64,000 nt of DNA, from contig WGLY01000017.1 in the NCBI GenBank assembly GCA_016125335.1, forward strand, positions 62,001-126,000. Direction: 5' to 3'. A model generated the notes under the pieces. The model saw only the letters and a list, made by a program, of their open reading frames with translations, made no database searches and was not told the DNA's origin. The position numbers were made by a program, and so were the translations under genes. Shown piece by piece: positions 30,137 to 50,422 of this stretch; the first letter of the stretch is position 1, and each line of letters starts with the position of its first letter. Origin of the DNA: Frankiales bacterium. GTDB taxonomy: Bacteria; Actinomycetota; Actinomycetes; S36-B12; CAIYMF01.

Positions 30137-31675
30137 ATGACCGCCGTCGACGACCGGGGCACCACCTCTTCCTTCGGCCCGGTGGGTGTGGGCTTTCACC
30201 CGGACTGGGACGTGCATGACCCGATTGCGTGGCTGACCGGCGACCCAGGCGCGCTGCTCGTCGTGCTCGACCAGCCGGTGGACGCGACCGATCTGATCCT
30301 GCTCGAGCAGGTTGACGTCGAGGCGATCACCGAGCCGGCCGAGCTGATCGACTACCTGTCCGTGGCGACCCGGCTCGAAGCCCGGCTCGCGTCCCTGCGG
30401 TTGGCGGCGGAGGCGGCGTTCGCGGTGAAGGCGTGCCCGGACTCGACGAGCGCGCACGCGTCGTACGCGGACGCGGCGGCCGAGCAGGAGGTCGCCTACG
30501 CCACCCACAACAGCGTCTACGCCGCGTCGAAGGAGATCGACCGCGCCCGGGCCCTGAAGGAGCTCTTCCCGGGGTTCGGCGCGGCGATGGCTGCGGGTGA
30601 GATCACCGAGCGGCACTGCGCGGTCCTCGTGGACCAGACCCGCTACCTCACGGATCCCGAGGTCCTCGCGACGATCGAGACCCAGGCGCTGGAGAAGGCC
30701 CGCACCCTGACTGCCTCGGAGCTGCGCAAGTTCCTCGACAAGCTGATCGCGCGGCATGACCCGGACGCGACCGTCCGCGCGCACAAGGCCGTCGCGACCC
30801 GGGACGTGTACCGGCAGCCGATCGGCGATGGGATGGCGTTCCTCGGCGTGACCCATCAGGCGCCGGTGATCGACGCGGTGTTCGACGCGATCGCGGCCGC
30901 GGGCAAGGCACTGCGCGCGCAGCGCGGCGGCGCCGAGGCCCTGCGCGCCGGGAACGAGGACGCTGCGTCGGGTGCCTGCCGCGCCGACGCGCTCGCTGCT
31001 CTCGTGCTCGGTGACCGTGGCGAGGACGGGACGTTGGTCTACGAGTCCTCGCGGACGCAGACCGAGCTGCACGTGGTGATGGACCTCGACACCCTGCGCG
31101 GGGAGCGCGACGGACTGGCACTGCTGAACGGCACGCCGATCCCGGCGCAGATCGCGCGGGAGGTCGCCGGCGGCGCGGAGTTCTGGCGCCGGCTGGTGGT
31201 GGATCCGGTCGACGGGCACCTGCTCGACTACGGCACCCGCCAGTACCTCCCGGCCGCGCTGCGTGAGCACGTGCTGCACCGCGACCCGGTCTGCCGCCGT
31301 CCCGGCTGCACCCGCCGCGCGCAGGAGATGGACCACGCGCTCCCGTTCCCGGAGGGAGCCAGCGACACCGCCAACTGCGGCGGCCTGTGCTCCCGCTGCC
31401 ACCAGGTCAAGACCGCCGGGCACGCGACCATCGAGGACAGCGCGCCGGACGGATCCGGCACCTGGGTGACCCGATGGCGCCAACGCATCCGCATCCCGGC
31501 CCAACCCGTCCTCGAACCACCGCCACGTACGGCGTCTCCCGTCGTGCCGCCCGCTGCTGCATCGGACGTGGGACCGCCGGGTCCGCATGCCGATGACGCG
31601 GCGGCCGAGCCCGGCGGCGACGGCCCTGACTGCGGTGCGACCCGCGACGACCCACCCGAGCGCCCGCCGTTCTAG
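30137..31675 (+). CDS. DUF222 domain HNH endonuclease-like protein (copy 1)
   Basis: A 512-residue protein: DUF222 region (about 60-380, helical) and a C-terminal HNH domain with CRRPGCTRRAQEMDHALPF and NCGGLCSRCHQVKTAGH, so both zinc-type Cys pairs and the HNH core are intact. Such proteins (the 13E12 type) occur in many copies in actinobacterial genomes, and their role is unproven. A Pro-rich tail follows residue 455. GGAGG lies six bases before the ATG. A close paralogue sits at 48908-50422, with long identical blocks and the same upstream element. Confidence 0.88.
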   Translation: MTAVDDRGTTSSFGPVGVGFHPDWDVHDPIAWLTGDPGALLVVLDQPVDATDLILLEQVDVEAITEPAELIDYLSVATRLEARLASLRLAAEAAFAVKACPDSTSAHASYADAAAEQEVAYATHNSVYAASKEIDRARALKELFPGFGAAMAAGEITERHCAVLVDQTRYLTDPEVLATIETQALEKARTLTASELRKFLDKLIARHDPDATVRAHKAVATRDVYRQPIGDGMAFLGVTHQAPVIDAVFDAIAAAGKALRAQRGGAEALRAGNEDAASGACRADALAALVLGDRGEDGTLVYESSRTQTELHVVMDLDTLRGERDGLALLNGTPIPAQIAREVAGGAEFWRRLVVDPVDGHLLDYGTRQYLPAALREHVLHRDPVCRRPGCTRRAQEMDHALPFPEGASDTANCGGLCSRCHQVKTAGHATIEDSAPDGSGTWVTRWRQRIRIPAQPVLEPPPRTASPVVPPAAASDVGPPGPHADDAAAEPGGDGPDCGATRDDPPERPPF

Positions 31676-33767: not shown

Positions 33768-35213
33768 TCAGAGGTCGCGCAGCGCCAGCTCGGCGGCGTT
33801 CCACCCGCACATGCCGTGCACCCCGCCGCCGGGCGGGGTCGACGCGGAGCAGAGGTAGAGCCCGTCGACCGGCGTGCGCCACGGCGACAGCGACGCGACG
33901 GGCCGGGTGAGCAGCTGGCGCCAGTCGCCGGCGCCGCCCGCGATGTCGCCGCCGATCTCGTTGGCGTCGTGCGCGTGCAGCGCGGCCGTGTCCAGGGTGC
34001 TGCGGGCCAGGATCCGGTCCCGGAACCCCGGCGCCGCGCGCTCCACCACCCGCTCGATCGTCTCGGTCATGTCCACGCGCGACCCGTGCGGCACGTGGCA
34101 GTACGCCCAGCCCGTGTGCCGGCCGGCCGGGGCGCGGGTGGGGTCGGCCACCGTCGCCTGGACGAACAGCACGTACGGCTCGTCAGGGTGCTCCCCCTGC
34201 GCGATCGCCGCCTCGCTGGCCGCGATGCTGCGCAGCGAGCCGCCCAGGTGCACCGTGGCCGAGCGGCCGACGTCCGGGTCGCGCCAGGGCACGGGACCGT
34301 CGAGCGCCCAGTCGACCTTGAACACGCCCGAGCCGTAGCGGAACCGCGCGAGCCGGTCCCGGTAGCGCGGGGGGAACGCACCCCCCGCGACGCGCAGCAC
34401 CTGTCGCGGGGTGAGGTCCAGCAGCACGGCACGGGCGGGCGGCAGCTCGTCGAGCGAGGAGACCGGCGTCCCCGTGCGCACCTCGCCGCCGAGCGCGGTG
34501 ATCCGCGCCACGAGCGCGTCGGCGATCGACGCCGAGCCGCCCACGGCCACCGGCCAGCCCACCGCGTGGGCGAGACCGGCGAGCAGCATGGCGTACGCCG
34601 TGGTGGCCGCCGCCTCGAGCGGCAGGATCGCGTGCGCTGCGACGCCGGCGAGCAGCGCGCGCGCCGGCTCGTCGCGGAACAGCGCGCGGCCGAGCGGGGC
34701 GGCCGGCCAGACGCCGAGCAGTCCGTAGCCGGCCATCGCCACGGGATGGCGGGGCGGCAGCCGCAAGGGGTCGAGGATGCCGTCGACGAGCGCGCCCTCG
34801 CCGCGCGCGACTCCGCCCACGAGCCGCCGCCACGCCGCGCCGTCGCGGCCGAGGCCCTCCGCCGTCAGGCCGAGGTCGCGGTGGAGCAGCGCCGTGGTGC
34901 CGTCGAGCGGGTGCGCCAGCGGGACCTCGGGGTGGGCGAACGCGAGCCCCTCCCGCGCAAGGTCGAGCGCCCGGAACGCGGGCGACGCCAGCGCGAGAGG
35001 GTGCACCGACGAGCACACGTCGTGCCGAAAGCCCGGCAGCGTCAGCTCCTCGGTGCGCAGCCCGCCGCCGTACGTCGGCTGCGCCTCGAGCACCAGGACG
35101 CGCAGGCCCGCCTCCGCCAGCCGCGCCGCGGCCACCAGCCCGTTGGGCCCGGAGCCCACGACGACGGCGTCCACGTCGCCGCGCCGCGCCACCGTCCACC
35201 GGCCCTGGCTCAC
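33768..35213 (-). CDS. FAD-dependent oxidoreductase, phytoene-desaturase-like
   Basis: A 481-residue protein of the CrtI/phytoene dehydrogenase-like amine-oxidase superfamily. The FAD dinucleotide motif VVGSGPNGLVAAARLAEAGL is near the N-terminus, and the C-terminal FAD motif is GLYLCSASTPPGGGVHGMCG. The PNGL variant marks the COG1233 group related to retinol saturase, not the core carotenoid enzymes, and no other carotenoid gene is here. It starts 37 bases after the last sensor paralogue and may end that operon. Substrate unknown. Confidence 0.85.
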   Translation of the reverse strand: MSQGRWTVARRGDVDAVVVGSGPNGLVAAARLAEAGLRVLVLEAQPTYGGGLRTEELTLPGFRHDVCSSVHPLALASPAFRALDLAREGLAFAHPEVPLAHPLDGTTALLHRDLGLTAEGLGRDGAAWRRLVGGVARGEGALVDGILDPLRLPPRHPVAMAGYGLLGVWPAAPLGRALFRDEPARALLAGVAAHAILPLEAAATTAYAMLLAGLAHAVGWPVAVGGSASIADALVARITALGGEVRTGTPVSSLDELPPARAVLLDLTPRQVLRVAGGAFPPRYRDRLARFRYGSGVFKVDWALDGPVPWRDPDVGRSATVHLGGSLRSIAASEAAIAQGEHPDEPYVLFVQATVADPTRAPAGRHTGWAYCHVPHGSRVDMTETIERVVERAAPGFRDRILARSTLDTAALHAHDANEIGGDIAGGAGDWRQLLTRPVASLSPWRTPVDGLYLCSASTPPGGGVHGMCGWNAAELALRDL

Positions 35214-35250: not shown

Positions 35251-36456
35251 TCACGACCGCTCCGCCCACAGCGAGGCGGCCGAGGGCGCCAGCAGGCGGC
35301 GCGTCACCGCGAGCAGCTCGGCGCCCACGAGGTCCGGGTCGACCTCGTCGGCCAGCCGCGCCGCGAACGCGTCGACGGCGCGCTGCGCGTCGACCTTCTC
35401 GCGGTCGAAGCGCCGGTCGATCACGCGCTGCACGCCGGAGAGCGCGGGCCGCACCACCGCCGCGGCCGTGAGCGTCGCGGCGGCGACGGCGAACTCGCTC
35501 GTGACCGGAAGCGCCGTGGACACGGCCGTGACGGTGCCGGCGTACACCGCGAGCACGAGGCCGGTGACGATCGTGTAGGCCACGGTGCGGCTCACCACGC
35601 GGTCGAGGCCGTAGAGGCCGTGGCGGAAGACGCCGACGGCGATGCCCAGCGGGAGCATCGTGACCGCGAGCGCCCACACCGGGTCGCCGTGGTAGAGGGT
35701 CGGGTAGGGCACCAGGCGTCCGGCCACGATCACCAGCGGCGTGGCGAGCGCGCCGAGCACCGGCCAGGTCACCTGCTTGCGGACCGCGGGGGGCGACTGC
35801 CACCACCGCTGCACGAGCGACACCATCGACACCGGCACCATCACCACGGCCCAGCCGAGCCCGACGTGGGTGACCAGGTAGCCGACGTCGTGCAGCGCCG
35901 GCACGACGGACACAGCCTGCGGGTAGCCGGGGAGCGGGTCGGTGTCCGGCCGGCCCGGCTCACCCGGATCCGGCCCGGCCAGGAACCCGAACGCCACCGC
36001 CGTGACGACCACGGGGACGTACACGCGCAGCAGGGCGCGCCAGAACCGGTTCGAGGCACGGCCGTCGGGAGCCAGGAACAGCATGATCGAGGCCAGGCCC
36101 ACGACCGAGGTCTGCGCCGCGGCGAACAGGCCGCCGGCCACGGCGACGACGGCGACCGGCCAGCCGTGCGAGGCACCCACCTGGGCCAGCACTCCGCTCG
36201 TCCCCTGCACCGCGGCGGCGACCGGGACCAGCAGCATGAGCGGGCCGAGCCGGTTGCCCGGCACGCGCGACGCGATCAGGGCGCCCGCGGCGCCGTACGC
36301 CGCGGCGCCCGCCGTCGACTCCAGCCAGAACGGATAGGTCCACGGCTGGCCCGAGTGCCACTGCCACACGACCACGGCGTCCACGCACAGCATCGCCGTC
36401 AGCGCGGACAGGTACACCGCCCACGGCCACCGGGCCCTCGGTGCGCGGGCGGTCAT
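35251..36456 (-). CDS. Kinase-less membrane sensor paralogue 1 (most divergent)
   Basis: A 401-residue protein with about nine hydrophobic segments, then the shared cytoplasmic coil: YGLDRVVSRTVAYTIVT, VIDRRFDREKVDAQRAVDAF, and a final segment to SLWAERS. In related actinobacterial sensor kinases this coil leads into a GAF or histidine-kinase part; here the chain stops at that point. Its N-terminal membrane region differs from the other three copies, so it may sense something else. The ATG overlaps the previous stop by 4 bases (TCAT on the plus strand, 36453-36456). Confidence 0.75.
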   Translation of the reverse strand: MTARAPRARWPWAVYLSALTAMLCVDAVVVWQWHSGQPWTYPFWLESTAGAAAYGAAGALIASRVPGNRLGPLMLLVPVAAAVQGTSGVLAQVGASHGWPVAVVAVAGGLFAAAQTSVVGLASIMLFLAPDGRASNRFWRALLRVYVPVVVTAVAFGFLAGPDPGEPGRPDTDPLPGYPQAVSVVPALHDVGYLVTHVGLGWAVVMVPVSMVSLVQRWWQSPPAVRKQVTWPVLGALATPLVIVAGRLVPYPTLYHGDPVWALAVTMLPLGIAVGVFRHGLYGLDRVVSRTVAYTIVTGLVLAVYAGTVTAVSTALPVTSEFAVAAATLTAAAVVRPALSGVQRVIDRRFDREKVDAQRAVDAFAARLADEVDPDLVGAELLAVTRRLLAPSAASLWAERS

Positions 36457-37715
36457 CGGTCCGTGGTCCACAGACTGCTCGCCGCCGGCGCGAAGAGCCG
36501 CGTCACGACGCCGAGGAGCTGGGCCCGTGCGTGGTCGGGATCCACGTCGTCGGCCAGGCGCGCACCGAACGCGTCCACGGCCCGCTGGGCGTCGACCTTC
36601 TCCCGGTTGAAGCGGCGGTCCACCACGCGCCGCACCCGCGAGTGCAGCGGGCGGACGAGCCCGGCGGCGGCCAGGGTGGCCGCGGCCACCACCCACGACG
36701 ACGATCCGTCGGGCAGCAGGGCCGAGGCCGAGGTGACCACGAGCGCGTAGACGCCCACGACGACCGCCGTGACGACGGTGTAGGCCGCGGTACGGCTGAT
36801 GATCCGGTCGATGTCGTAGAGGCGGTAGCGCAGCACGGCGACACCGCAGGCCGTGGGCACGAACGCGGCGGCGACGGTGAAGCCCAGCTGCGCCGCGAGG
36901 CCGGAGTTCCCCCCGGGCAGCCAGTCGCCGACGAAGAAGAAGACGACGAGGATCGCGGCGGCGAAGCCGAACCAGCGCAGCTGCGCCCGCTCCATGGCGG
37001 TGCCGCGACGCGCGCGCACGAACGGTGCGCAGGCAGCGGCGCCCAGGCCCAGCAGCGCGACCCCGGCGCCCACCGCTCCCACCGGCTGCTCGAGCGGTCG
37101 CAGCGCGTCCACCCAGGGCGGCGCCCACGGGTTGGCGATCACCACGGACGGGCCGTCCGCCGACGCGTCGATCGTGACCGTGGCCGCGGTGGCGCTCCCG
37201 ACGACGACCAGCGCCACCGCCACGGTGCCGGTCCAGAGCAGCGGCCGCCAGCGACGCGAGGGCAGCCCGTCCGGGAACAGCAGGAAGGTCAGGAAGGTCA
37301 TGAGGTAGAGCAGCAGGAACCACAGCGACCCGCCCGCCAGCGCGGCCAGCACGACCCACCGCGGCCAGGCGATGCCGGCGCCGCTGGGGTCGGCGGCGAG
37401 GGCCGCCGCCTGCTGGTCGAGCCCTGCTTGCACGGCGGCGTTGCTGGTGCCGACGGCGCTGGCCACGACGGCGACGCCCAGGAACACCCACCCGATGGGG
37501 TTGTGCGGACGGCGGTGCGCCACGAGCGCGCCCATCGCGAAGTAGCCCAGCAGCGGGAGCAGCAGCGACGGGTCCTGAAGCCCGCCGGACGCGGGCACCG
37601 AGAGCGCCATGCCCAGCACGGTCGCGACCACGAGGACCCACCACACGGCGCGCCGGCCCCCGCTGAGCCGCGCGGTCGCGACCGTGGGCGCCGCGGCGTG
37701 GGCGACCGTGCTCAT
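36453..37715 (-). CDS. Kinase-less membrane sensor paralogue 2
   Basis: A 420-residue protein of the same family, closely similar to copies 3 and 4: hydrophobic segments interrupted by HRRPHNPIGWVFLG and FLLFPDGLPSRRWRPLL, then RYRLYDIDRIISRTAAYTV, VDRRFNREKVDAQRAVDAF, and a short end at SSLWTTDR. No kinase, cyclase or GAF domain follows. It overlaps both neighbours by 4 bases, which points to coupled translation at matched levels. Function unknown. Confidence 0.78.
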   Translation of the reverse strand: MSTVAHAAAPTVATARLSGGRRAVWWVLVVATVLGMALSVPASGGLQDPSLLLPLLGYFAMGALVAHRRPHNPIGWVFLGVAVVASAVGTSNAAVQAGLDQQAAALAADPSGAGIAWPRWVVLAALAGGSLWFLLLYLMTFLTFLLFPDGLPSRRWRPLLWTGTVAVALVVVGSATAATVTIDASADGPSVVIANPWAPPWVDALRPLEQPVGAVGAGVALLGLGAAACAPFVRARRGTAMERAQLRWFGFAAAILVVFFFVGDWLPGGNSGLAAQLGFTVAAAFVPTACGVAVLRYRLYDIDRIISRTAAYTVVTAVVVGVYALVVTSASALLPDGSSSWVVAAATLAAAGLVRPLHSRVRRVVDRRFNREKVDAQRAVDAFGARLADDVDPDHARAQLLGVVTRLFAPAASSLWTTDR

Positions 37716-38950
37716 CGGCGGACCATCCCGACCGCGACCGTGCTCGGCGCGAGGAGCCGTCGCGCGACCGCCTCGAGCTGCGCGCGGCCGTGCTCGGGGT
37801 CGACGTCGTCCACCAGGCTCGCGCCGAAGGCGTCCACGGCGGCCTGCGCGTCGACCTTCTCGCGGTTGAAGCGCCGGTCGACCCAGCGCTGCACGCGGCG
37901 CAGCGCGGGCCGCACCATCGCCGCCGCGGCCAGCGTGGCGGCGGCCACGGCCAGCGACGAGGAGCCCTCCGGCAGCAGGTTCGACGCGGAGGCGACGACG
38001 ACCGCGTAGACCGCGAGCGCGAGCGCCGTGACGATCGAGTACGACGCCGTGCGGCTGATGATGCGGTCGATGTCGAAGAGCCGGTAGCGCAGGATCGCGA
38101 TGCCGCAGCCCAGCGGGATGAATGCCGTCGACACGGCGAAGGCGGCGTTGGCTGCGGTGCCGTCCGGGCCCCCGGGGACGAGTACCGGGACGAAGCTCAC
38201 CAGCAGCATGACGAGGACGAACAGCGCGGCGGAGAACCCGAACCAGCGCAGCTGCGCGCGCTCCACGACAGACGCCCTGCGGACCCGCACGAAGGGTGCG
38301 GCCACAGCCCCCACGAGGCACGCGACCACGGCCAGCGGGAGCAGCACTCCCATGGCGCCGCTCGTCGGGTCGACCGTCGAGGTCCACGCGGGCGAGATCG
38401 GGTTGGCCAGCAGCACCGGCACCGCACGGGTGCCGTCGCTGATGTCGATCGTGGGCTTGAGCGTCAGGGCGGACACGACGACGACCAGCACGGTCGTGCC
38501 CGCGGCGAGCAGCGGACGCCACCGCCGCGACGGAAGGCCCGAGGGGAACATCAGGCAGATCAGGAACGGCATCAGGTAGAGCATCACGAACCACGCCGTC
38601 GACCAGAACAGCGCCAGCGGCACCACCCACCACGGCCAGACGACGCTGCCCCCCGTGGGGTCGAGCGCCAGCGCGTCGGACTGCTGGCGCAGGGCCAGCT
38701 GGAGCAGCGACCTGGTCGCGGCGTCCAGGGAGCTCAGCGTGGCCACGGCCAGGAAGATCCAGCCCACCGGGTTCTCCGGGCGACGCCGCGCCACGACGGC
38801 GCCCACGGCGAGGCAGGCGACGGTGGGGATCATCAACGAGGCGCCGCGCAGGTCGAACGCCGCGGGCAGCGCCACGAGGGTCGACACGGCCGTCACCGCC
38901 ACAGCCGCCCACCACGTCCACGCGGCCCTGCCGCGGACCGCGGCGCTCAC
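37712..38950 (-). CDS. Kinase-less membrane sensor paralogue 3
   Basis: A 412-residue copy with the same plan: ARRRPENPVGWIFLA, LMFPSGLPSRRWRPLL, RYRLFDIDRIISRTASYSI, and VDRRFNREKVDAQAAVDAF, ending 44 residues later. It starts at GTG 38950, which overlaps the stop of copy 4 by 4 bases (GTGA). Charged positions between helices are kept while the helices themselves vary, as expected for duplicated sensors with separate ligands or for subunits of one complex. Confidence 0.78.
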   Translation of the reverse strand: MSAAVRGRAAWTWWAAVAVTAVSTLVALPAAFDLRGASLMIPTVACLAVGAVVARRRPENPVGWIFLAVATLSSLDAATRSLLQLALRQQSDALALDPTGGSVVWPWWVVPLALFWSTAWFVMLYLMPFLICLMFPSGLPSRRWRPLLAAGTTVLVVVVSALTLKPTIDISDGTRAVPVLLANPISPAWTSTVDPTSGAMGVLLPLAVVACLVGAVAAPFVRVRRASVVERAQLRWFGFSAALFVLVMLLVSFVPVLVPGGPDGTAANAAFAVSTAFIPLGCGIAILRYRLFDIDRIISRTASYSIVTALALAVYAVVVASASNLLPEGSSSLAVAAATLAAAAMVRPALRRVQRWVDRRFNREKVDAQAAVDAFGASLVDDVDPEHGRAQLEAVARRLLAPSTVAVGMVRR

Positions 38951-40206
38951 GACGCCGCCCCCTTGACCCACAGGGCGGCGCTGCTCGAGCCGAACGCCTG
39001 CCGGGTGAGCTGCAGCAGCTCGAGCTCGGCCCGCTCGGGGTCGACCTCGTCGACCAGCCGGCTGCCGTACTCCTCGACGGTGCGCTGCGCGTCGACCTTC
39101 TCGCGGTTGAAGCGGCGGTCCACCCAGCGCTGCACCCGTGTGAGCAGCGGCCGCACCACGGCGGCCGCCGCCAGGGTGGCCGCCGCGACGGCGAGCGACG
39201 AGGACCCCTCGGGCAGCAGGCGCGTCGCGGACGTGACGACGGCGGCGTACACGCCGACGACGACGGCGGTGACGATGGCGTAGGCAGCGGTGCGGCTGAT
39301 GATCCGGTCGATGTCGTAGAGGTGGTAGCGCACCACCGCGAGACCGCACGCCAGCGGGATGAACGAGAACGCCGCGACCATGACGAGGTTGGCGAGCTGG
39401 CCGTCGCCACCGCCCGGAAGCGCGTTGGTGCCGAACATCGCGACGACGAACAGCGCGGCCGCGTACGCGAACCAGCGCAGCTGCGCCCGCTCGGTCGCGC
39501 CGGCCCGGCGCGCGCGCACGAACGGGGCCGACACCGAGCCGATGAGCAGGACGGTCACGATCACCCCGCCCACCGCGCCGAACACGTCCGAGCGCCCGGC
39601 GAGCGCCGACATCCACGACGGCGAGAGCGGGTTCGGCGTCGTGACGTGCACGTCGGCGGAGTAGTCGTCGAGCTGCAGCGTCGGCCAGAGGAGGGTCACG
39701 AGCACGATCACGCCGGTGAGCGCGGTGCCGAGCCGCAGGAACCAGCGCCAGCGCGGCGACGGCAGGCCCGAGGGGTAGAGCAGGAAGGTCACGAAGGTCA
39801 TCAGGTACAGCTGGACGTACCACGACCAGGTGAGGAAGGACGCGGCGACGAGGGTCCACCAGTGCCAGCCGACGCCGGCCCCGGTCGGGTCGCCCGCCAG
39901 CTGCGCGGCGTGCTCGTCGAGGCCGAGGATGACGAACGTGTTCGCGCCGCCGACGAGCCCGGACAGCGCCGCGAGCCCGAGGAAGATCCAGCCGATCGGG
40001 CTCTCGGGCCTCCGGTAGGCCACGACGGCGCCCACGAGCAGGTAGGCCAGCACGGCGGCCCCGAAGGCGGAGTTCTGCAGCGCGTGCACCGCGGGGATCC
40101 CCACGACCGCACCGCTGACGGCCAGCACCACCAGGGTCCACCAGCACGCGCGGACCAGGCGCGGGCGCCCAGGAAGCCGCGCGAGGTCGCCGGACGGGGC
40201 CGTCAT
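38947..40206 (-). CDS. Kinase-less membrane sensor paralogue 4 (first of the tandem)
   Basis: A 419-residue copy: AYRRPESPIGWIFLG, FLLYPSGLPSPRWRWFL, RYHLYDIDRIISRTAAYAI, VDRRFNREKVDAQRTVEEY, and a terminal SSAALWVKGAAS. It begins 38 bases after the stop of the gene at 40245 and leads the four overlapping sensor genes. The layout suggests one long message from the phosphatase gene (43355) down to 35251. It has about ten membrane segments. Confidence 0.78.
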   Translation of the reverse strand: MTAPSGDLARLPGRPRLVRACWWTLVVLAVSGAVVGIPAVHALQNSAFGAAVLAYLLVGAVVAYRRPESPIGWIFLGLAALSGLVGGANTFVILGLDEHAAQLAGDPTGAGVGWHWWTLVAASFLTWSWYVQLYLMTFVTFLLYPSGLPSPRWRWFLRLGTALTGVIVLVTLLWPTLQLDDYSADVHVTTPNPLSPSWMSALAGRSDVFGAVGGVIVTVLLIGSVSAPFVRARRAGATERAQLRWFAYAAALFVVAMFGTNALPGGGDGQLANLVMVAAFSFIPLACGLAVVRYHLYDIDRIISRTAAYAIVTAVVVGVYAAVVTSATRLLPEGSSSLAVAAATLAAAAVVRPLLTRVQRWVDRRFNREKVDAQRTVEEYGSRLVDEVDPERAELELLQLTRQAFGSSSAALWVKGAAS

Positions 40207-40244
40207 GGGCGCCCGGTGGCAGGCAGGGGCCGGCGGCGCACGGC

Positions 40245-40955
40245 TCAGGCCGCCCTCGTCCCACGGAACGGGGAGGTCGCGGAGTGCCAGGCCGAGCGCA
40301 TGCCGGAGTTGTGCCGCACGTTGCGCCAGTTGCGCCAGAGCCGTCGGCGGTCGACGCACGTCGTCGTCTCCCACACCGGGACGTCCGCGACGCCGTGGTC
40401 CTTCGCGAGGTTGCGCAGGGTGGCGGACCAGAACGCGTCCTCCTTGCGCTTCATGACCGGCCAGCCGAGCTCGTAGAGCGGGTCGCTGGTGCGGATGAGG
40501 ATCTGCACCTCGGCGACCGTCGTGCCGGCGTCGCTCCGCTCGGACTCGAAGGTGATCCAGCCCGCGAACATGTGGCCCTCGGGGCACATGAAGGTGAACG
40601 ACGTGTCGTCCATGTAGAGCACCATGATCCCCGTCGACACCGTCAGCCCGGGGGCGCCGCTGGCGATCGCGATGGGCGAGACGACCCCCGGGCGCAGCCC
40701 GGTGAGCGCCACGTGGAAGGTGGCTCCGTCCGGCCAGTACGTGGGGAACCGCTGCTTCCAGTCCGCCACCACCTGCTCCGGTGTCACGGCGTCGCCGAGG
40801 TCGACGGCGTACCGGCGCTGCCAGAGGCGCCCGAACCCCTGCTGCGCGCCGGCCAGGCGCCGGCCGGCGACGTTGAACCCTGCCGCGGCGAGCTCGTCGC
40901 TCACCTCGAGCCGCTCGACCTTCGCGGCCCAGTTGCTCTCGTCCCTGCTGCTCAT
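40245..40955 (-). CDS. Uncharacterised protein, possibly DUF1990/SRPBCC-like
   Basis: A 236-residue soluble protein with no signal peptide. The stretch MCPEGHMFAGWITFESER and the following LYELGWPVMKRKEDAFW recall the GHxxxGxExF and PxxRxxQxxF blocks of DUF1990 (UPF0548), a possible lipid-binding SRPBCC-like fold, but the match is by eye and weak. It lies between the STAS genes (13-base gap) and the sensor tandem, so it is probably part of the same signalling operon. Confidence 0.6.
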   Translation of the reverse strand: MSSRDESNWAAKVERLEVSDELAAAGFNVAGRRLAGAQQGFGRLWQRRYAVDLGDAVTPEQVVADWKQRFPTYWPDGATFHVALTGLRPGVVSPIAIASGAPGLTVSTGIMVLYMDDTSFTFMCPEGHMFAGWITFESERSDAGTTVAEVQILIRTSDPLYELGWPVMKRKEDAFWSATLRNLAKDHGVADVPVWETTTCVDRRRLWRNWRNVRHNSGMRSAWHSATSPFRGTRAA

Positions 40956-40968
40956 GACGACCTCGTGT

Positions 40969-41319
40969 TCACAGCGCCGCGATCGCGGCGTCCTCGTCGG
41001 GGTGCAGGCTGATCGCCTCGTCGAGGCGGGTCAGCTCGAAGATCTGGCGGTAGTGCGGGGTGAGGCCGCACGCGGCCAGCCGCTGCTTGTTCCGGTTGGC
41101 GCGCACCAGGAGCGTCACGAGCATCCCGATGCCGCCGCTGTTCATGTAGTCGAGGCCGGCGAAGTTGAGCACGATGCCCGTCGTGCCCCCGGTGCTCGCC
41201 TCCTCGTAGGCTTCGGCGAGCACGTCGTCGCAGTGCGACGTGACCTCGCCGCCGATGTCGATCACCGCGACGTGCGAGCGTTCGTGCCGCACGGTCATGG
41301 TCGCGACGGGTGTGGGCAT
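40969..41319 (-). CDS. STAS-domain anti-sigma-factor antagonist (RsbV-like), copy A
   Basis: A 116-residue single STAS domain. Antagonists of this type are phosphorylated by an RsbW-like kinase on a serine and, when dephosphorylated, bind it to free a sigma factor. The site is LDYMNSGGIGML, serine 61 in the loop before helix 2. It follows copy B by 27 bases. The two copies differ enough to have separate partners. Confidence 0.88.
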   Translation of the reverse strand: MPTPVATMTVRHERSHVAVIDIGGEVTSHCDDVLAEAYEEASTGGTTGIVLNFAGLDYMNSGGIGMLVTLLVRANRNKQRLAACGLTPHYRQIFELTRLDEAISLHPDEDAAIAAL

Positions 41320-41346
41320 GGGTCCCCCCTCGGGACGGTCGGACGG

Positions 41347-41697
41347 TCAGGACGGCGTCGCACCCGCGAGCGCGGCGGGCGTGTCGGGGAACACGGCGAT
41401 GAAGTCGGACAGCCGGGTGATGGAGAAGATGTGCTGGTAGTGCTCCGAGAGCCCGGTGGCCAGCACCGAGCGCCCGTGCGCGCGGGCGCGCCCGAGGATC
41501 CCGACGATCAGGGCGATGCCCGTGGAGTTGATGTAGTCGACGTCGTGGAAGTCGAGCAGCACGGAGCCGGCGCCGGTGGCGTCGACGTCGTCGTACGCGG
41601 CGTTGAGCGCGTCGAGCGCGGAGCGGTCGACCTGGCCCGACAGCGACATGACCGCCACCGGCGGCTCGCCCTCCACGTGGACGGGGTAGCGGGACAT
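41347..41697 (-). CDS. STAS-domain anti-sigma-factor antagonist (RsbV-like), copy B
   Basis: A 116-residue single STAS domain with VDYINSTGIALIV; serine 58 is the expected phosphosite. Its ATG overlaps the stop of the GAF-PP2C-HATPase gene by one base (TGATG), so the antagonist and the enzyme that both phosphorylates and dephosphorylates it would be made together. Confidence 0.9.
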   Translation of the reverse strand: MSRYPVHVEGEPPVAVMSLSGQVDRSALDALNAAYDDVDATGAGSVLLDFHDVDYINSTGIALIVGILGRARAHGRSVLATGLSEHYQHIFSITRLSDFIAVFPDTPAALAGATPS

Positions 41698-43355
41698 CAC
41701 GCACTCTCCTCGAGATCGAGCCTGAGCCGGACCGTGTGCCGGGAGCCGTCGACCTCGTGCTCGACGGCGTCGACCATGTGGTCGATGAGGAACAGGCCCC
41801 AGCCGCGCGGCGTCTGGAGACCCGCGAGCTTGAGCTCGAGGTCCGGCTCCTCGGTGCGGGTGCCCGGTGCCGCGCCGCCCGCGTCGCTCACGAGCACCTC
41901 GACGGACGTCGCCGTCCGGCGCACGACGACGTCGACGAGCAGCCGCGCGTCGAGGCCGTTGCCGTGCTCGATGCCGTTCATCGCGGTCTCCGCGACGGCG
42001 GTCGACAGCCGCGAGCGCTGGTCGTCGGTGAGCGGCACGTCCTCGAGGGCGGCCTCGAGCCGGCGCACCGCCTCGCGCTCGTTGCCGGCCTCGCTGCGGA
42101 CGCTGAACCGGGCCAGCTCGACCGCGTCGTCGGCGGCGTCGCCGTAGCCGGCGCCCTCCGAGCGCTCGAGGGCGACCATCGTGATGTCGTCCTCCTGCTC
42201 GACGCCCGGCCCGGTGAACCGGGCCAGCTCGCTCACGCACAGGTCGGCGAGCTCGGCGGCGGACCTCGCGCGTCCCACGACGTCGCGGGTGCGGCCGAAG
42301 CCGAACATCTCGCCGTCGCCGTCGTGCTGCTCGGTGAGGCCGTCGCTGTAGAGCAGCACCTGCTCGCCCGGCGCGACCGTCGCGGTCTCCTCGTCGTAGC
42401 GCAGGCCCGGCATCAGTCCGAGCGGCATGCCGGTGGCCCGCAGCTCGCGCACGGTGCCGTCGGTGGCGCGCACGTAGGGCAGGTTGTGGCCGGCGTTGGC
42501 GAACTGCACGGTGCCGGTGCGCGCGTCGATCACGAGCACGAGGCAGGTGACGAACATGTGCGCCGGGATGTCCGCGCACAGCAGGTCGTTCACGCGCGAG
42601 AGGACCTCGGACGGCGACGACAGGCGCGACCCGGTCTCGCGCAGCAGGGCGTGGGTGCTGGCCATCACGAGCGCCGCGGGGACGCCCTTGTCGGTGACGT
42701 CGCCGACGACGATCATCACGCGGCCGTCGGGCATCGTGATGAAGTCGTAGAAGTCGCCGCCCACCGTGCGGGCCGGGCGGTAGAAGGCGGCCACGTGCCA
42801 CGTGGGGAGGTCGGGCAGGTTCTCGGGCAGGAACTGCTGCTGGATCAGCTGCGCGACCTTGAGCTCCTGGTCGATGCGCTCCCGCTCGCGGGCCTCGACC
42901 TCCTGCTGCCGCACGAGCTGGCCGAGGCGCAGCGCCGGGGCGGCGTAGCGGGCGAGGCTCTCCAGCAGCTGCCGGTCGTCCTTGCTGTAGCCGCGCTCGG
43001 ACAGCCGCGGCCCGAGCTGGAGCAGGCCCACGAGCTCGCCGTTGGTGACGAGCGGGACCACCAGCACCACTCCGGCCTCGCGCATGCGGTCCACCGCCGG
43101 CGAGTCGAGCGTGAGCGAGTCCAGCTCGACGGCGTGCGGCGCGCCGGCGAAGTAGGCGATCACGGGGTCGTTGGGCGCGATGTCGACCGGCTCGTCCACG
43201 ACCGCGGCGAGGTCGGCCATCGCCGGGGCCGGAGCCTCGGAGCCGGAGCGGCGCCAGCGGGAGCGTCGGCGCGGGCGGCGCTCGGACGCCGCGGCGTCCG
43301 GCTCGCTCTGGTCGGCCCGGGCGACGGACGGGCCCAGCGCGGTCGAGCTGGCCAT
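41697..43355 (-). CDS. GAF-PP2C phosphatase-HATPase fusion (RsbU and RsbW functions in one protein)
   Basis: A 552-residue cytoplasmic protein. A GAF-like domain (about 45-150) and a short coil precede a SpoIIE/RsbU-type PP2C phosphatase (about 180-385: RPARTVGGDFYDF, GDVTDKG, NAGHN, LYSDGLTE, DDITMV), and a GHKL ATPase of the RsbW type ends it (about 405-545: N-box VAETAMNGIEHGNG, G-box GWGLFLIDHMVD). It can in principle both remove and add phosphate on STAS antagonists. ATG 43355 has GGGAGG five bases upstream. No sigma factor gene is nearby, so the output target is encoded elsewhere. Confidence 0.92.
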   Translation of the reverse strand: MASSTALGPSVARADQSEPDAAASERRPRRRSRWRRSGSEAPAPAMADLAAVVDEPVDIAPNDPVIAYFAGAPHAVELDSLTLDSPAVDRMREAGVVLVVPLVTNGELVGLLQLGPRLSERGYSKDDRQLLESLARYAAPALRLGQLVRQQEVEARERERIDQELKVAQLIQQQFLPENLPDLPTWHVAAFYRPARTVGGDFYDFITMPDGRVMIVVGDVTDKGVPAALVMASTHALLRETGSRLSSPSEVLSRVNDLLCADIPAHMFVTCLVLVIDARTGTVQFANAGHNLPYVRATDGTVRELRATGMPLGLMPGLRYDEETATVAPGEQVLLYSDGLTEQHDGDGEMFGFGRTRDVVGRARSAAELADLCVSELARFTGPGVEQEDDITMVALERSEGAGYGDAADDAVELARFSVRSEAGNEREAVRRLEAALEDVPLTDDQRSRLSTAVAETAMNGIEHGNGLDARLLVDVVVRRTATSVEVLVSDAGGAAPGTRTEEPDLELKLAGLQTPRGWGLFLIDHMVDAVEHEVDGSRHTVRLRLDLEESA

Positions 43356-43493: not shown

Positions 43494-46295
43494 GTGCCGT
43501 GCGTGCCAGGACGGGGAGACACCAGCGGCAGCAGCTCACGGCTCACGCTGTTCGGGCCGCCGAGCGCGGTGCGCGCGGGCGCGCCCGTCGCGTTCGACAC
43601 GCGCAAGTCGTACGCCGTGCTCGCCCGGGTGGCGCTGGCGCGGCGGCCGGTGTCGCGCGACGCGCTGGCCGCGCTCCTGTGGCCCGAGGCCGACCCGGAC
43701 CGCGCGCGCAGCGCGCTGCGCCGCACGCTGTCGGTGACCGGCGCGGTGGGGCCGTGCCTCGTCGTCGACCGCAGCGCCGTGAGCGTGGACCCGACGCTCG
43801 TCGACGTCGACGCCTGGGAGTTCGAGGCCCTCGCCGCCGGCGACGACCCCGCGGGATGGCGCCGTGCCGTAGAGCTCGCGGGCGGGCGCTTCCTCGACGG
43901 CCTCGCCCTGCGCGACGCACCGGAGTTCGACGACTGGCAGTCGCAGACGGCCGCGGACTACGAGCGGCAGGTGGGCACGGTGCTCGACCGGCTGGTGGCG
44001 GCGGAGACCGAGGACGGCAGGCTCGACGTCGCTCTCGGCCTCGCCCGCCGGCGGCTCGCGCTCGACCCGCTGCACGAGCCGGCGCACCAGGCGCTCATGC
44101 GCCTGCTGGCCTGGACCGGCGACCGCTCCGCGGCGATGGACCAGTTCCGCGTGTGCGCGCGCACCCTCGACCGCGAGCTGGGCGTGCGGCCGCTGCCCGA
44201 GACGCACCGGCTCTACGACCTCATCCGCGACGAGGGCCTCGACCCTCCCGAGCCGCGCCCACGTGCGGTGGCGCGCCCCGCGCCCGCGCCGACGTCCGCC
44301 GGCGTGGCCGTCCCGCCGCTGCCCGACCTCGTGGGGCGGGACGAGCTGGTGGCACGGGTGGCCGCGGCGCTCGACGGGCCGCAGGCCGGACCCGCCGTGG
44401 CCCTGGTGGGCGAGCCCGGGTCGGGGCGGTCGTCGGTGGCCGCCGCGGTGTGCCGGGAGCGCGCCGACGCCGGCGGCCGGGTGCTCACGATGCGCGGGCT
44501 CGAGGCGGAGCGCGGGATCGCGCTGGGCGCCGTCACGGCGCTCGTGCGCCAGCTGCTCGCCGACGACGCCGTGCCCCTGGACGACCTCCCCTTCGGCGTG
44601 CGGGCCGAGCTCGGCCGGCTGGCCCCGGAGACCGACCAGTCGCCGCTGCCGCCGCTGGACAGCCCCGGCGCGCAGGCCCGGCTCTTCGACAGCGTGGTCG
44701 CTGCGCTCGCGCTCCCCGCCCCCGTGCCGGACGCCGCGCGCACGCTCCTCGTGGTGGACGACGTCGACCTGCTCGACGAGGCGTCGGCGGACTTCGTCGG
44801 CTACCTCGCCCGCAGGCTGCCGGCGCACGTCGCGCTGCTGCTCGTCTACCGCCACGCGGTCGAGGCGCTCCAGGGCGCCGAGGTGGAGCGGCTCGCCGTG
44901 CCGCCGCTGGCCGCGGACGAGGCGGGCCGGCTGCTCGCGGCGATGGGCGTGAGCGTGGGCCCGGAGGCGCTCGAGGACCTCGTGCGCCGCACCGGCGGAT
45001 CGCCGCGCCTGCTACGCGAGTTCGCGCTCGCGTCGTCCTCCGACGACGACCTGCCCACCCTCGAGCTGCGCGGCCTGCTCGAGTCGCGGCTGTCCGCGCT
45101 GGGCGAGACCACGCGGCAGGTCGTCTCCGCCGCGGCCGTGCTCGGGCGGGCCGCCGACGTCGACCTGCTGCGCGCCGTGAGCGGCCGGGCCGACGTCGAG
45201 GTGGTCGACGCGATCGAGGAGGCCGTGGGCCGCGGGCTGCTGGTCGAGCTGGCCGACAGCGGCGAGTACGACGTCCCCTACGACGCGGTGCGGCTGGCGG
45301 CGACCGGCCGCCTCAGCCGGGCGCGCGAGCGGCTGCTGCACAGCCGGGCCGCGGACGCCCTCGCCGCACGGCGCCAGGCGCCGGCGTCGGCTGCCGCCGT
45401 CGCGACGCACCTCGAGCTCGCCGGGCGCGAGGACGAGGCCGCGGCCTGGTACTGGACCGCGGCACTGGAGGCACGGGACCTGTGGGCCCACGGCATCGCG
45501 CTGCAGCACCTGCAGCGCGCGGTCGCGCTCGGCCACGACCCCGCCGCCTGCCACCTCGCCTCCGGCGAGGCGCTCATCGCGCTGGGCCGCTACCGCGACG
45601 CGATCGACGAGCTCGAGCTCGCGGCCCAGCTCGCCGAGGGCCCCGAGCTGGCCGCCATCGAGCACCGGCTCGCCGACGTGCACCACCGCCTGGGCGCGTG
45701 GACGACGTCGCGCGCCCACGTGGAGCACGCCCTCGACCTGCTCGGTGCCGCCCCGGACGGGCCGGACGCCGCCGTGCTCCGGGCGCGCTGCCTCGCCGAC
45801 CACGCGCTGCTGCGGCTGCGCGAGGGCGACGTCGCCGCCGCGGACGCCGAGCTGTCCGAGGTGCTCGCGGCCGCCGAGCGCACCGGGGACGCGGCGGCGC
45901 TGGCCCAGGCGCACGACGTCGCGGGCGTGCTCGCCGCCGCGGGCGGCGACGCGGACGCGGCGCGCCGGCACCTGCGCGCCAGCCTCAGTTACGCCGCCAA
46001 CCTCGCGGACCCGTCGTACGCCGTCGCCGCCTGGAACAACCTGGCGCGCGTGGAGTGGACGGCCGACGACGTCGCCGCCGCGCTCGACGCGCAGCGGCAC
46101 GCGCTCGAGCTCGGGGAGCGGCACGGCGACCGGCACCGGCTCGCCGCGCTGCACACCAACCTCGCCGACCTCCTGCACGCCGACGGCCGCACCGACGACG
46201 CGATGGAGCACCTCGCGCGCGCCGCCGAGCTGTTCGCCTCGGTCGACCGCGAGGACGAGCGGCGGCCGGAGGTGTGGAAGCTCGTCGCGTGGTGA
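43494..46295 (+). CDS. BTAD/AAA/TPR transcriptional regulator (SARP-like)
   Basis: A 933-residue cytoplasmic regulator. A winged-helix-like N-terminus (LTLFGPPSAVRAG, SRDALAALLWPEADPDRARSA) leads into a bacterial transcriptional activator domain (about 95-245). The AAA-type ATPase follows (about 275-550), with Walker B LLVVDDVDLLD, but the P-loop reads GEPGSGRS: arginine replaces the lysine that normally contacts ATP phosphates. The C-terminal third is helical TPR-like repeats. GTG starts exist at 43494 and 43503. It is divergent from the partner-switching operon, which may be its target. Confidence 0.87.
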   Translation: MPCVPGRGDTSGSSSRLTLFGPPSAVRAGAPVAFDTRKSYAVLARVALARRPVSRDALAALLWPEADPDRARSALRRTLSVTGAVGPCLVVDRSAVSVDPTLVDVDAWEFEALAAGDDPAGWRRAVELAGGRFLDGLALRDAPEFDDWQSQTAADYERQVGTVLDRLVAAETEDGRLDVALGLARRRLALDPLHEPAHQALMRLLAWTGDRSAAMDQFRVCARTLDRELGVRPLPETHRLYDLIRDEGLDPPEPRPRAVARPAPAPTSAGVAVPPLPDLVGRDELVARVAAALDGPQAGPAVALVGEPGSGRSSVAAAVCRERADAGGRVLTMRGLEAERGIALGAVTALVRQLLADDAVPLDDLPFGVRAELGRLAPETDQSPLPPLDSPGAQARLFDSVVAALALPAPVPDAARTLLVVDDVDLLDEASADFVGYLARRLPAHVALLLVYRHAVEALQGAEVERLAVPPLAADEAGRLLAAMGVSVGPEALEDLVRRTGGSPRLLREFALASSSDDDLPTLELRGLLESRLSALGETTRQVVSAAAVLGRAADVDLLRAVSGRADVEVVDAIEEAVGRGLLVELADSGEYDVPYDAVRLAATGRLSRARERLLHSRAADALAARRQAPASAAAVATHLELAGREDEAAAWYWTAALEARDLWAHGIALQHLQRAVALGHDPAACHLASGEALIALGRYRDAIDELELAAQLAEGPELAAIEHRLADVHHRLGAWTTSRAHVEHALDLLGAAPDGPDAAVLRARCLADHALLRLREGDVAAADAELSEVLAAAERTGDAAALAQAHDVAGVLAAAGGDADAARRHLRASLSYAANLADPSYAVAAWNNLARVEWTADDVAAALDAQRHALELGERHGDRHRLAALHTNLADLLHADGRTDDAMEHLARAAELFASVDREDERRPEVWKLVAW

Positions 46296-46353: not shown

Positions 46354-46548
46354 TGCGTCGTGGCGAGCGCCGTCGTGGCGAGCGCCTTCGTGGCGAGCGC
46401 CGTCGTGGCGAGCGCCGTCGTCGCGAGCGCCGTCGTCGTGAGCGGCGTCGTCGTGAGCGGCGTCGTCGTGAGCGGCGTCGTCGTGAGCGGCGTCGTCGTG
46501 AGCGGCGTCGTCGTGAGCGGCGTCGTCGTGAGCGGCGTCGTCGTGAGC
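46354..46548. repeat. Array of thirteen 15-bp tandem repeats
   Basis: Thirteen consecutive 15-base units; the last seven are identical (GGCGTCGTCGTGAGC), and the first six drift (GCCGTCGTGGCGAGC and close forms). As 15 is divisible by three, every frame reads as pentapeptide repeats, for example VVVSG. It fills most of the 352-base gap 46296-46647 behind the BTAD gene; the remainder shows nothing. The identical units point to recent expansion by slippage. Confidence 0.95.
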
Positions 46549-46647
46549 GTGGTCGCGGACGGCGTCGTAGCGAGGCCGTAACGCGGCGGGCGCAGGCTCG
46601 AGCCGTCACCGACCGAGAGCCGGTCGGGACGGTCTCGAGGGGGAGAC

Positions 46648-48907: not shown

Positions 48908-50422
48908 ATGACTGCCGTCGACGACGCGGGCACCACCCCGGGCTTCCGTCCTCTCAGCGTCGCGTTCCTCCTGGACTCCCTGTACCACCAGCCTCCGGCG
49001 TGGCTCCGCGGCGATGCGAGCGCACTGGCCGCAGTGCTCGAGCAGCCGGTGGATGCCACCGACCTCCTGCTGCTCGACCACATCGACGTCGACGCGATCA
49101 CCGAGCCGGCCGAGCTGATCGACTACCTCGCGATGACCGCCCGGCTCGAGGCCCGGCTGGCCTCGATGCGCCTCGCCGCCGAGGCCGCGTTCGCCGCGAA
49201 GGCGTGGCCGGACTCCGCGCTCCGTAACTCGTACGAGGACGCCGCCGCGGCGCAGGAGGTCGCCTACGCCACCCATGTCAGCGCCTACGGCGCGGCGAAG
49301 GAGATCGACCGCGCCCGGGCGCTGACCGAGACGTTCCCGTCGTTCGGCGCGGCGCTGGCCGCGGGCGAGATCACCGAGCGGCACTGCGCGGTCCTCGTGG
49401 ACCAGACCCGGTTCGTGGCCGACGTCGACGCGCTGGCAGCCATCGAGGCGGCGGCTCTGGACGAGGCGCGCACCGCGACCCCGTCCGAGCTGCGCAAGCT
49501 GCTCGACAAGCTCATCGCCCGCCACGACCCGGACGCGACCGTCCGTGCCAACCGAGCTGCTGCCACGCGCGACGTGTACCGGCAGCCGATCGGCGACGGG
49601 ATGGCGTTCCTCGGCGTCACGCACCGGGCGCCGGTGATCGACGCGGTGTTCGACGCGATCGAAGCCGCCGGCAAGGCGCTGCGCGCGCAGCGCGGTGGGG
49701 CCGAGGCCGTGCGCGCGGGGAACGAGGACGCCGCATCGGGTGCGTGCCGCGCGGACGCCCTGGCCGCTCTGGTCCTCGGCGAACGAGGCGAGGACGGCGA
49801 ACTCGTCTACGAGGCGTCGCGCACGCAGACCGAGCTGCACGTGGTGATGGACCTCGACACTCTCCGCGGCGAGCGCGACGGCCTGGCGCTCGTGAACGGC
49901 ACGCCGATCCCTGCACCGATCGCGCGTGAGGTCGCCGCGGTCGCCGACTGGTGGCGACGCGTGGTCGTCGACCCGGTCGACGGGCACCTCCTCGACTACG
50001 GCACCCGCCGGTACCTGCCCGCCGCCCTGCGGGAGCACGTCCTGCACCGTGACCCCATCTGCCGACGACCCGGCTGCACCCGCCGCGCCCAGGAGATGGA
50101 CCACGCCCTCCCGTTCCCCGAGGGCGCGAGCGACACCGCGAACTGCGGCGGCCTGTGCTCGCGCTGCCACCAGGTGAAGACGGCAGGCCACGCCACCATC
50201 GAGGACAGCGCGGCCGACGGGTCGGGCACCTGGGTCACCCGATGGCGGCAACGCATCCGCATCCCGGCCCAACCTGTCCTCGAGCCACCACGACGGACGA
50301 CACCGCCGACGGCCGAACCGCCCGCCCCGCCCGGCGTCGTGGATGCACGCCCCGACACCGGCGACCCGGACGTCCACCCCGACCCACGCACGACCGACCC
50401 GCCGGAGCGACCGCCCGTCTGA
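48908..50422 (+). CDS. DUF222 domain HNH endonuclease-like protein (copy 2)
   Basis: A 504-residue paralogue of the protein at 30137-31675. The two align with almost no gaps and share long identical blocks such as DATDL, ITEPAELIDYL, GEITERHCAVLVDQTR, RQPIGDGMAFLGVTH and the entire HNH core (CRRPGCTRRAQEMDHALPF, NCGGLCSRCHQVKTAGH). N-terminal 45 residues and the Pro-rich tail differ most. The same ribosome-binding site (GGAGGTGCCCG) precedes both starts. It sits between a P450 gene and tRNA-Ser. Confidence 0.88.
   Translation: MTAVDDAGTTPGFRPLSVAFLLDSLYHQPPAWLRGDASALAAVLEQPVDATDLLLLDHIDVDAITEPAELIDYLAMTARLEARLASMRLAAEAAFAAKAWPDSALRNSYEDAAAAQEVAYATHVSAYGAAKEIDRARALTETFPSFGAALAAGEITERHCAVLVDQTRFVADVDALAAIEAAALDEARTATPSELRKLLDKLIARHDPDATVRANRAAATRDVYRQPIGDGMAFLGVTHRAPVIDAVFDAIEAAGKALRAQRGGAEAVRAGNEDAASGACRADALAALVLGERGEDGELVYEASRTQTELHVVMDLDTLRGERDGLALVNGTPIPAPIAREVAAVADWWRRVVVDPVDGHLLDYGTRRYLPAALREHVLHRDPICRRPGCTRRAQEMDHALPFPEGASDTANCGGLCSRCHQVKTAGHATIEDSAADGSGTWVTRWRQRIRIPAQPVLEPPRRTTPPTAEPPAPPGVVDARPDTGDPDVHPDPRTTDPPERPPV

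Follow-up and report, generated by a model that had tools for sequence, protein, structure and literature searches.

The eight genes read on the minus strand from 43355 to 35251 are one lineage's version of a conserved actinobacterial locus. As judged from sequence comparison, this locus resembles a membrane sensor phosphatase that has been divided within its GAF domain and whose receptor half has been duplicated. The apparent division lies inside the GAF because the tail of the membrane proteins corresponds to the start of a GAF domain in a natural fusion and in related kinases, and the GAF match of the phosphatase starts after it. On these grounds and on structure models, we favor, with somewhat better than even confidence, a sensor phosphatase that is split in two and served by interchangeable receptors. 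The window, meaning the whole stretch of DNA that was analyzed, is 64 kb long, has a GC content of 75% and belongs to a host genome of 3.9 Mb. The locus comprises the following features, listed with the evidence for each.

43494..46295, plus strand: BTAD-AAA-TPR (SARP/AfsR-like) regulator, divergent, candidate output (family match, synteny).
41697..43355, minus strand: GAF (C-terminal part)-PP2C (SpoIIE)-HATPase_c_2 protein of 552 aa, the phosphatase-kinase hub (Pfam, orthologues, motifs).
42930..43160, minus strand: incomplete GAF of the hub, residues 66-142, matching PF01590 positions 57-133 (Pfam, tail-model comparison).
41347..41697, minus strand: STAS1, anti-anti-sigma type, motif NSTG (Pfam, alignment).
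40969..41319, minus strand: STAS2, anti-anti-sigma type, motif NSGG (Pfam, alignment).
40245..40955, minus strand: soluble conserved protein with a predicted SRPBCC/Bet v 1-like helix-grip fold (AlphaFold2, Foldseek).
38947..40206, minus strand: M1, putative kinase-less polytopic membrane receptor with about nine hydrophobic segments (simple hydropathy scan, homology).
38965..39042, minus strand: M1 tail, predicted GAF alpha1-beta1, DPERAELELLQLTRQAFGSSSAALWV (profile matches, alignment, fold model).
37712..38950, minus strand: M2, putative membrane receptor, tail at 37724-37801 (homology, tree).
36453..37715, minus strand: M3, putative membrane receptor, tail at 36465-36542 (homology, tree).
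35251..36456, minus strand: M4, putative membrane receptor of an older subfamily, tail at 35263-35340 (homology, tree).
33768..35213, minus strand: FAD-dependent oxidoreductase, phytoene desaturase/CrtO superfamily (family match, synteny).

The eight genes form a single run. Pfam finds GAF, SpoIIE/PP2C and HATPase_c_2 domains in gene 1 and STAS domains in genes 2 and 3, which confirms the layout and domain order given in a preliminary description of this DNA. Its account of the junctions is likewise borne out by the coordinates: the PP2C and STAS1 genes overlap by 1 base, the next gaps measure 27, 13 and 38 bases (all below 40), and the three junctions M1/M2, M2/M3 and M3/M4 are exact 4-base overlaps. 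The run extends past 35251, where that description had closed it: the FAD oxidoreductase gene (35213-33768) begins 37 bases past M4, and its synteny extends to relatives. A scan for terminator-like sites between 33600 and 43700 came back empty, as did a promoter scan; both results are weakly informative at 75% GC. Gene 4 and M1-M4 matched no Pfam or NCBIfam family above cut-off. A role in defense was considered and dropped, because a PADLOC scan matched none of the eight proteins. Elsewhere in the window, a 15-base tandem repeat (14.5 copies, 93% matches) lies at 46355-46568, just 3' of the BTAD gene. Two similar plus-strand ORFs starting MTAVDD.GTT flank the region at 30137-31675 and 48908-50422, the former with a CRRPGC...H region that is HNH/DUF222-type-like, and a 252-base repeat at 5549-6084 (2.1 copies, 76%) possibly represents repeated domains within one protein.

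The same locus is found across actinobacteria. Its conserved order is a divergent BTAD gene followed by PP2C-HATPase, STAS, STAS, SRPBCC-like protein, a variable number of membrane proteins (M) and the FAD oxidoreductase. Searching with the gene-4 protein as query retrieved this block from three Microbacterium genomes, from Nanopelagicales and from a further Actinomycetales MAG. In combined profile and hub searches, genomes with the block numbered 8 of 395 in the class and 24 of 246 in the phylum, the latter spread over 20 of 171 genera. In gene-order maps the core is PP2C-STAS-STAS, with the SRPBCC-like gene next to it nearly always and M genes on either side; the BTAD gene is divergent or nearby in most loci whose contig extends that far, and the FAD gene is present at many loci. 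The preliminary description had proposed looking for synteny of the M paralogues with GAF-PP2C-HATPase and STAS genes. This synteny is conserved: over 30 further loci have the gene set, which excludes a chance arrangement. A plasmid search with P0001 returned only distant SpoIIE phosphatases of less than 60% identity, and the operon was absent. In family f58 (L075, L076, L079, L080 and L081), several genomes encode the PP2C-GAF and HATPase parts as separate ORFs, and several loci have two copies of the SRPBCC-like gene.

The hub has the hallmarks of a partner-switching enzyme pair. Its PP2C domain (PF07228, 6.6e-52) carries the conserved motifs GGDFYD, GDVTDKG, SDG and DDIT, and its HATPase domain (PF13581, 2.1e-15) is of the RsbW type with an intact N-box and a conserved E..MN.IEHGN; the motifs of both domains are invariant in alignment A3. 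Asn57, Ser58 and Gly60 are invariant across 14 STAS sequences (alignment A4), and the STAS proteins thereby appear to carry the phosphorylatable serine of partner-switching substrates. The closest PDB sequence match of the hub is 3ke6 (Rv1364c; 4.4e-14). The GAF-PP2C gene is single-copy in 23 of 26 genomes; one genome (G610) contains six PP2C matches, five of them without the start of the GAF region, along with about 20 M matches, and possibly has several hubs.

The GAF domain of the hub is incomplete at its N-terminal end. The match begins at position 57 of the 133-position profile and covers the C-terminal part only, so that the phosphatase chain holds no complete N-terminal sensor domain: helix 1 and strand 1 are missing. 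This is the rule among operon hubs, whose GAF matches start at profile position 31-57 or later, and wherever the start is clear the N-terminus ahead of the match is short and Arg/Pro-rich. A model of the M tail scores 0 bits or less in every hub, versus 48 bits in a natural fusion protein described below.

The four membrane proteins are paralogous and kinase-less, in agreement with the preliminary description: M1 shares 50-52% identity with M2 and M3 and 33% with M4, and Pfam finds no HisKA_3 or HATPase_c match and no kinase domain in M1-M4. A PDB search with the M profile returned nothing useful. The coil VDRRF-N/D-REKVDAQ, at which the chains had been said to stop, is present, but they continue for about 45 more residues that close with a conserved helix and strand, DP...L....P....SLW. 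Among about 90 M proteins, nearly all run past the coil through 'LD.L..DL..VV..T.QP...SLWLR' and end 0-38 residues later, the exceptions being the fusion and one kinase. Mean pairwise identity is highest in the coil (0.53) and the core (0.51), intermediate in the tail (0.42) and lowest in the N-terminal membrane half (0.27). Being better conserved than that half, the tail is not decaying. It is this extra segment beyond the coil that suggests a split-sensor mechanism.

The identity of the tail is indicated by chains in which M and GAF are joined. The only natural M-GAF-PP2C fusion found (L083:6347-9037) has 896 residues. It lacks a HATPase domain and STAS neighbors, its M part forms a long branch in the tree, and the same genome also has the split operon. 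Residues 469-614 of the fusion match PF01590 from position 1 to 133 (1.4e-6), a full-length GAF profile in one chain. The M profile extends to residue 497 and overlaps this match by its last 29 residues; the GAF begins inside M, because the full match starts before the M profile ends. In the M-domain histidine kinases L126 and L123, the GAF match (2-132) likewise starts about 25 residues before the end of the M profile. An alignment of the fusion fragment, the kinases and M tails (A8) gave 34-59% identity between M tails and the fusion across the coil, the helix and the strand; when fusion, hubs and M proteins were aligned together with MAFFT (A7), the result was misaligned and set aside.

Structure prediction is consistent with these matches. 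In a single-chain AlphaFold2 model of the fusion fragment from coil to linker (mean pLDDT 84.0), the coil forms helix 2-37 and the M tail forms helix 43-58 and strand 62-68, followed by more strands and a long helix (170-220); the M-tail block has a pLDDT of about 88-92. GAF-containing proteins, 6ob8 and 6oap among them, are the top PDB matches of this model; together with the model itself, they suggest that the M-tail residues form an ordinary GAF start in the joined chain. For strand beta2 of the model (82-90), neither half of the split pair offers a clear counterpart. Because the M and GAF matches overlap at this point in the fusion and the kinases, and the hubs miss the start of the GAF, the M/hub boundary appears to cut the domain after strand 1. 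From profile matches and models we conclude that the tail is GAF helix 1 plus strand 1, the part missing from the hub.

A different reading of the same features is that coupling runs through the coil only. M dimers would then dock on the hub by their coils, as RsbT does on RsbU, with the tail serving as a cap or dimer element and the hub GAF being complete in a shortened form. Coil and core are indeed the most conserved parts of M, some M-domain kinases have compact GAF domains (L125), and PP2C phosphatases are known to be controlled by partner-bound linkers (PMC12143880). It would, however, leave unaccounted for a tail that spans exactly GAF alpha1-beta1, is kept in nearly all M proteins and is absent from every hub, and we regard coil-only coupling as unlikely, if still worth serious attention.

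A sensor phosphatase split within the GAF could work as follows. M would be the front half, consisting of the transmembrane sensor, the signaling coil and the first GAF helix and strand, and the hub would be the back half, with the remaining GAF, the PP2C phosphatase and the RsbW-like kinase domain. The tail of any M present would bind the hub and complete the GAF fold in trans at the membrane. The completed GAF would couple the membrane coil to the linker that governs the phosphatase, thereby gating STAS dephosphorylation. PP2C and kinase domains would set the phosphorylation state of both STAS proteins as the readout, and these would alternate between two partners, the kinase domain and an output protein. 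Extra M copies, arising by tandem duplication, would add inputs while leaving the number of phosphatases the same. What we infer in this scheme is that the two chains complement each other physically, which way control runs and what the output is; control of a PP2C via a coiled linker, also in trans, is established for RsbU/RsbT, where a partner protein on the RsbU linker activates the phosphatase (PMC12143880).

Synteny, co-occurrence and the natural fusion make a functional partnership of M with the phosphatase-kinase well supported. Kinase-less M proteins (E < 1e-60, counted from the matches listed) and the hub were both found in 22 of the 246 phylum genomes, with 2 genomes having the hub only, 3 having M only and 219 having neither; the Fisher p value of 5e-26 overstates the association because the genomes are related. 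The three draft genomes G418, G552 and G566 have kinase-less M and no detected hub, and two hub loci on short contigs (L020 and L072) have no M nearby. The functional tie between the membrane proteins and the phosphatase-kinase that the preliminary description proposed is thus upheld by more than 30 syntenic loci, by co-occurrence and by the fusion; its idea of a fixed complex of the four paralogues is not.

In that idea, M1-M4 would form a hetero-oligomer driving the hub. The four share their coils, and their overlapping genes are probably translationally coupled. Yet copy number varies widely in relatives, with one M gene at the locus in L005 and L009, two in Microbacterium, three to four in L004 and L023, seven in L024 and eight in L065, and the hub is usually single, so that four subunits are not the rule. 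A maximum-likelihood tree shows M1-M3 to be a recent, lineage-specific triplication (100/99), and M4 groups (100/99) with one M of L026 and with the L024 M that comes last before the FAD gene. The M arrays of G477 and G609 are independent expansions in the same tree. A fixed four-part sensor is therefore very unlikely. Across operon genomes, a search profile built from 42 M proteins gave 1 to 34 matches per genome (34 in G591, 21 in G414 and 20 in G610), many of them outside the operon, with counts at E <= 1e-30 that include some sensor kinases among the weaker matches; in G591, about 21 of the 34 matches lie in open frames too short for a kinase. A broader proposal holds that up to tens of M proteins per cell share or compete for one hub via the donated GAF helix 1 and strand 1, with complementation as the interface, the SRPBCC-like protein as a soluble input and the BTAD regulator, rather than a sigma factor, as a possible output. 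We advance it tentatively, with a little less than even confidence.

The fourth gene, previously described as an unknown soluble protein, is predicted to encode an SRPBCC/Bet v 1-like helix-grip fold. Its AlphaFold2 model has a mean pLDDT of 90.6, and Foldseek matched it to PR-10, PYR/PYL and other SRPBCC structures at E values of about 1e-5 to 1e-4 and target TM scores mostly of 0.5-0.6. The best family match was DUF1990, at 18.7 bits against a cut-off of 23. PDB sequence matches, mainly to antibody chains, were attributed to chance, and the fold search settled the protein as SRPBCC-like. The Foldseek matches include abscisic-acid receptors of plants, whose targets are PP2C phosphatases; the analogy is suggestive only. 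Proteins of the SRPBCC/Bet v 1-like fold often bind small hydrophobic ligands, and one can imagine that such a ligand is the main input, the SRPBCC-like protein regulating the PP2C loosely as PYR/PYL do and M serving, for example, as membrane anchors. The PYL-PP2C complexes among the matches, the nearly constant synteny of the gene with the hub and the adjoining FAD oxidoreductase, whose synteny with the module holds in many genomes, would fit. But the Bet v 1 fold is widespread, the Foldseek matches are low in identity (8-18%), plant PP2C control uses a different binding mode and the expansion of M is left unexplained; we give this possibility little credence. That the operon is merely shared and M pairs with unrelated partners is scarcely credible: M genes also lie on other contigs in several genomes, but synteny, co-occurrence and the M-GAF-PP2C fusion speak against it.

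The split phosphatase may act on a conserved BTAD regulator or on a sigma factor encoded elsewhere. The sigma-factor output put forward in the preliminary description has so far gained no support: with one sigma query, no locus was found to encode a sigma factor similar to the genome's SigB/F/G, and one SigB/F/G gene of this genome lies elsewhere (G000 C3:105541). The conserved adjacent regulator is the BTAD protein, and as a conserved neighbor of the module it is a serious alternative output.

The chemistry itself is partner switching, which is already known. The nearest described protein, Mycobacterium tuberculosis Rv1364c, has the domain order PAS-PP2C-HATPase-STAS (PMC12143880, PMC7693655). 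It combines PP2C, RsbW-type kinase and sensor domain in one chain with a STAS partner, as here, but its PAS sensor and STAS domain are within the same chain, whereas here the GAF is incomplete, the STAS proteins are separate and the membrane receptors are separate and multiplied. The Bacillus subtilis RsbU/RsbT/RsbV/RsbW and RsbP/RsbQ systems likewise comprise a PP2C phosphatase, a STAS substrate and a HATPase kinase, and their phosphatases are controlled in trans via the N-terminal region and linker (PMC12143880). Their activators are RsbT or the alpha/beta-hydrolase RsbQ rather than membrane receptors; they have no split domain, and sigma-B is in their pathway, in contrast to the loci here, which lack it. 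Actinobacterial M-domain histidine kinases (L126, L119 and L123) have a homologous transmembrane core, coil and GAF alpha1-beta1, but go on into the rest of the GAF, HisKA_3 and HATPase_c, whereas M proteins stop after strand beta1. In stressosomes with RsbR paralogues, and in chemoreceptors acting on one CheA, divergent sensors with a conserved output end serve one shared signaling protein. The likeness to both is a working one only; the domains differ and we do not claim homology. We found no description of the split GAF, the receptor array or the conserved locus in the literature searched, which covered few subscription journals.

How a sensor transfers its signal to the PP2C in partner switching is an open question (PMC12143880). 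At this locus the sensor appears to be a separate chain that has been duplicated and has diversified, whereas the phosphatase is usually single. One output would in this way receive many inputs, much as CheA does from chemoreceptors. If the GAF domain is completed in trans, the locus would offer a testable case of a signaling domain used as a plug between receptor and enzyme, and would explain a class of kinase-less actinobacterial membrane proteins that has no name in Pfam or NCBIfam. Since one to about 30 interchangeable receptors would each carry the missing GAF piece of the hub, many different signals could feed one switch.
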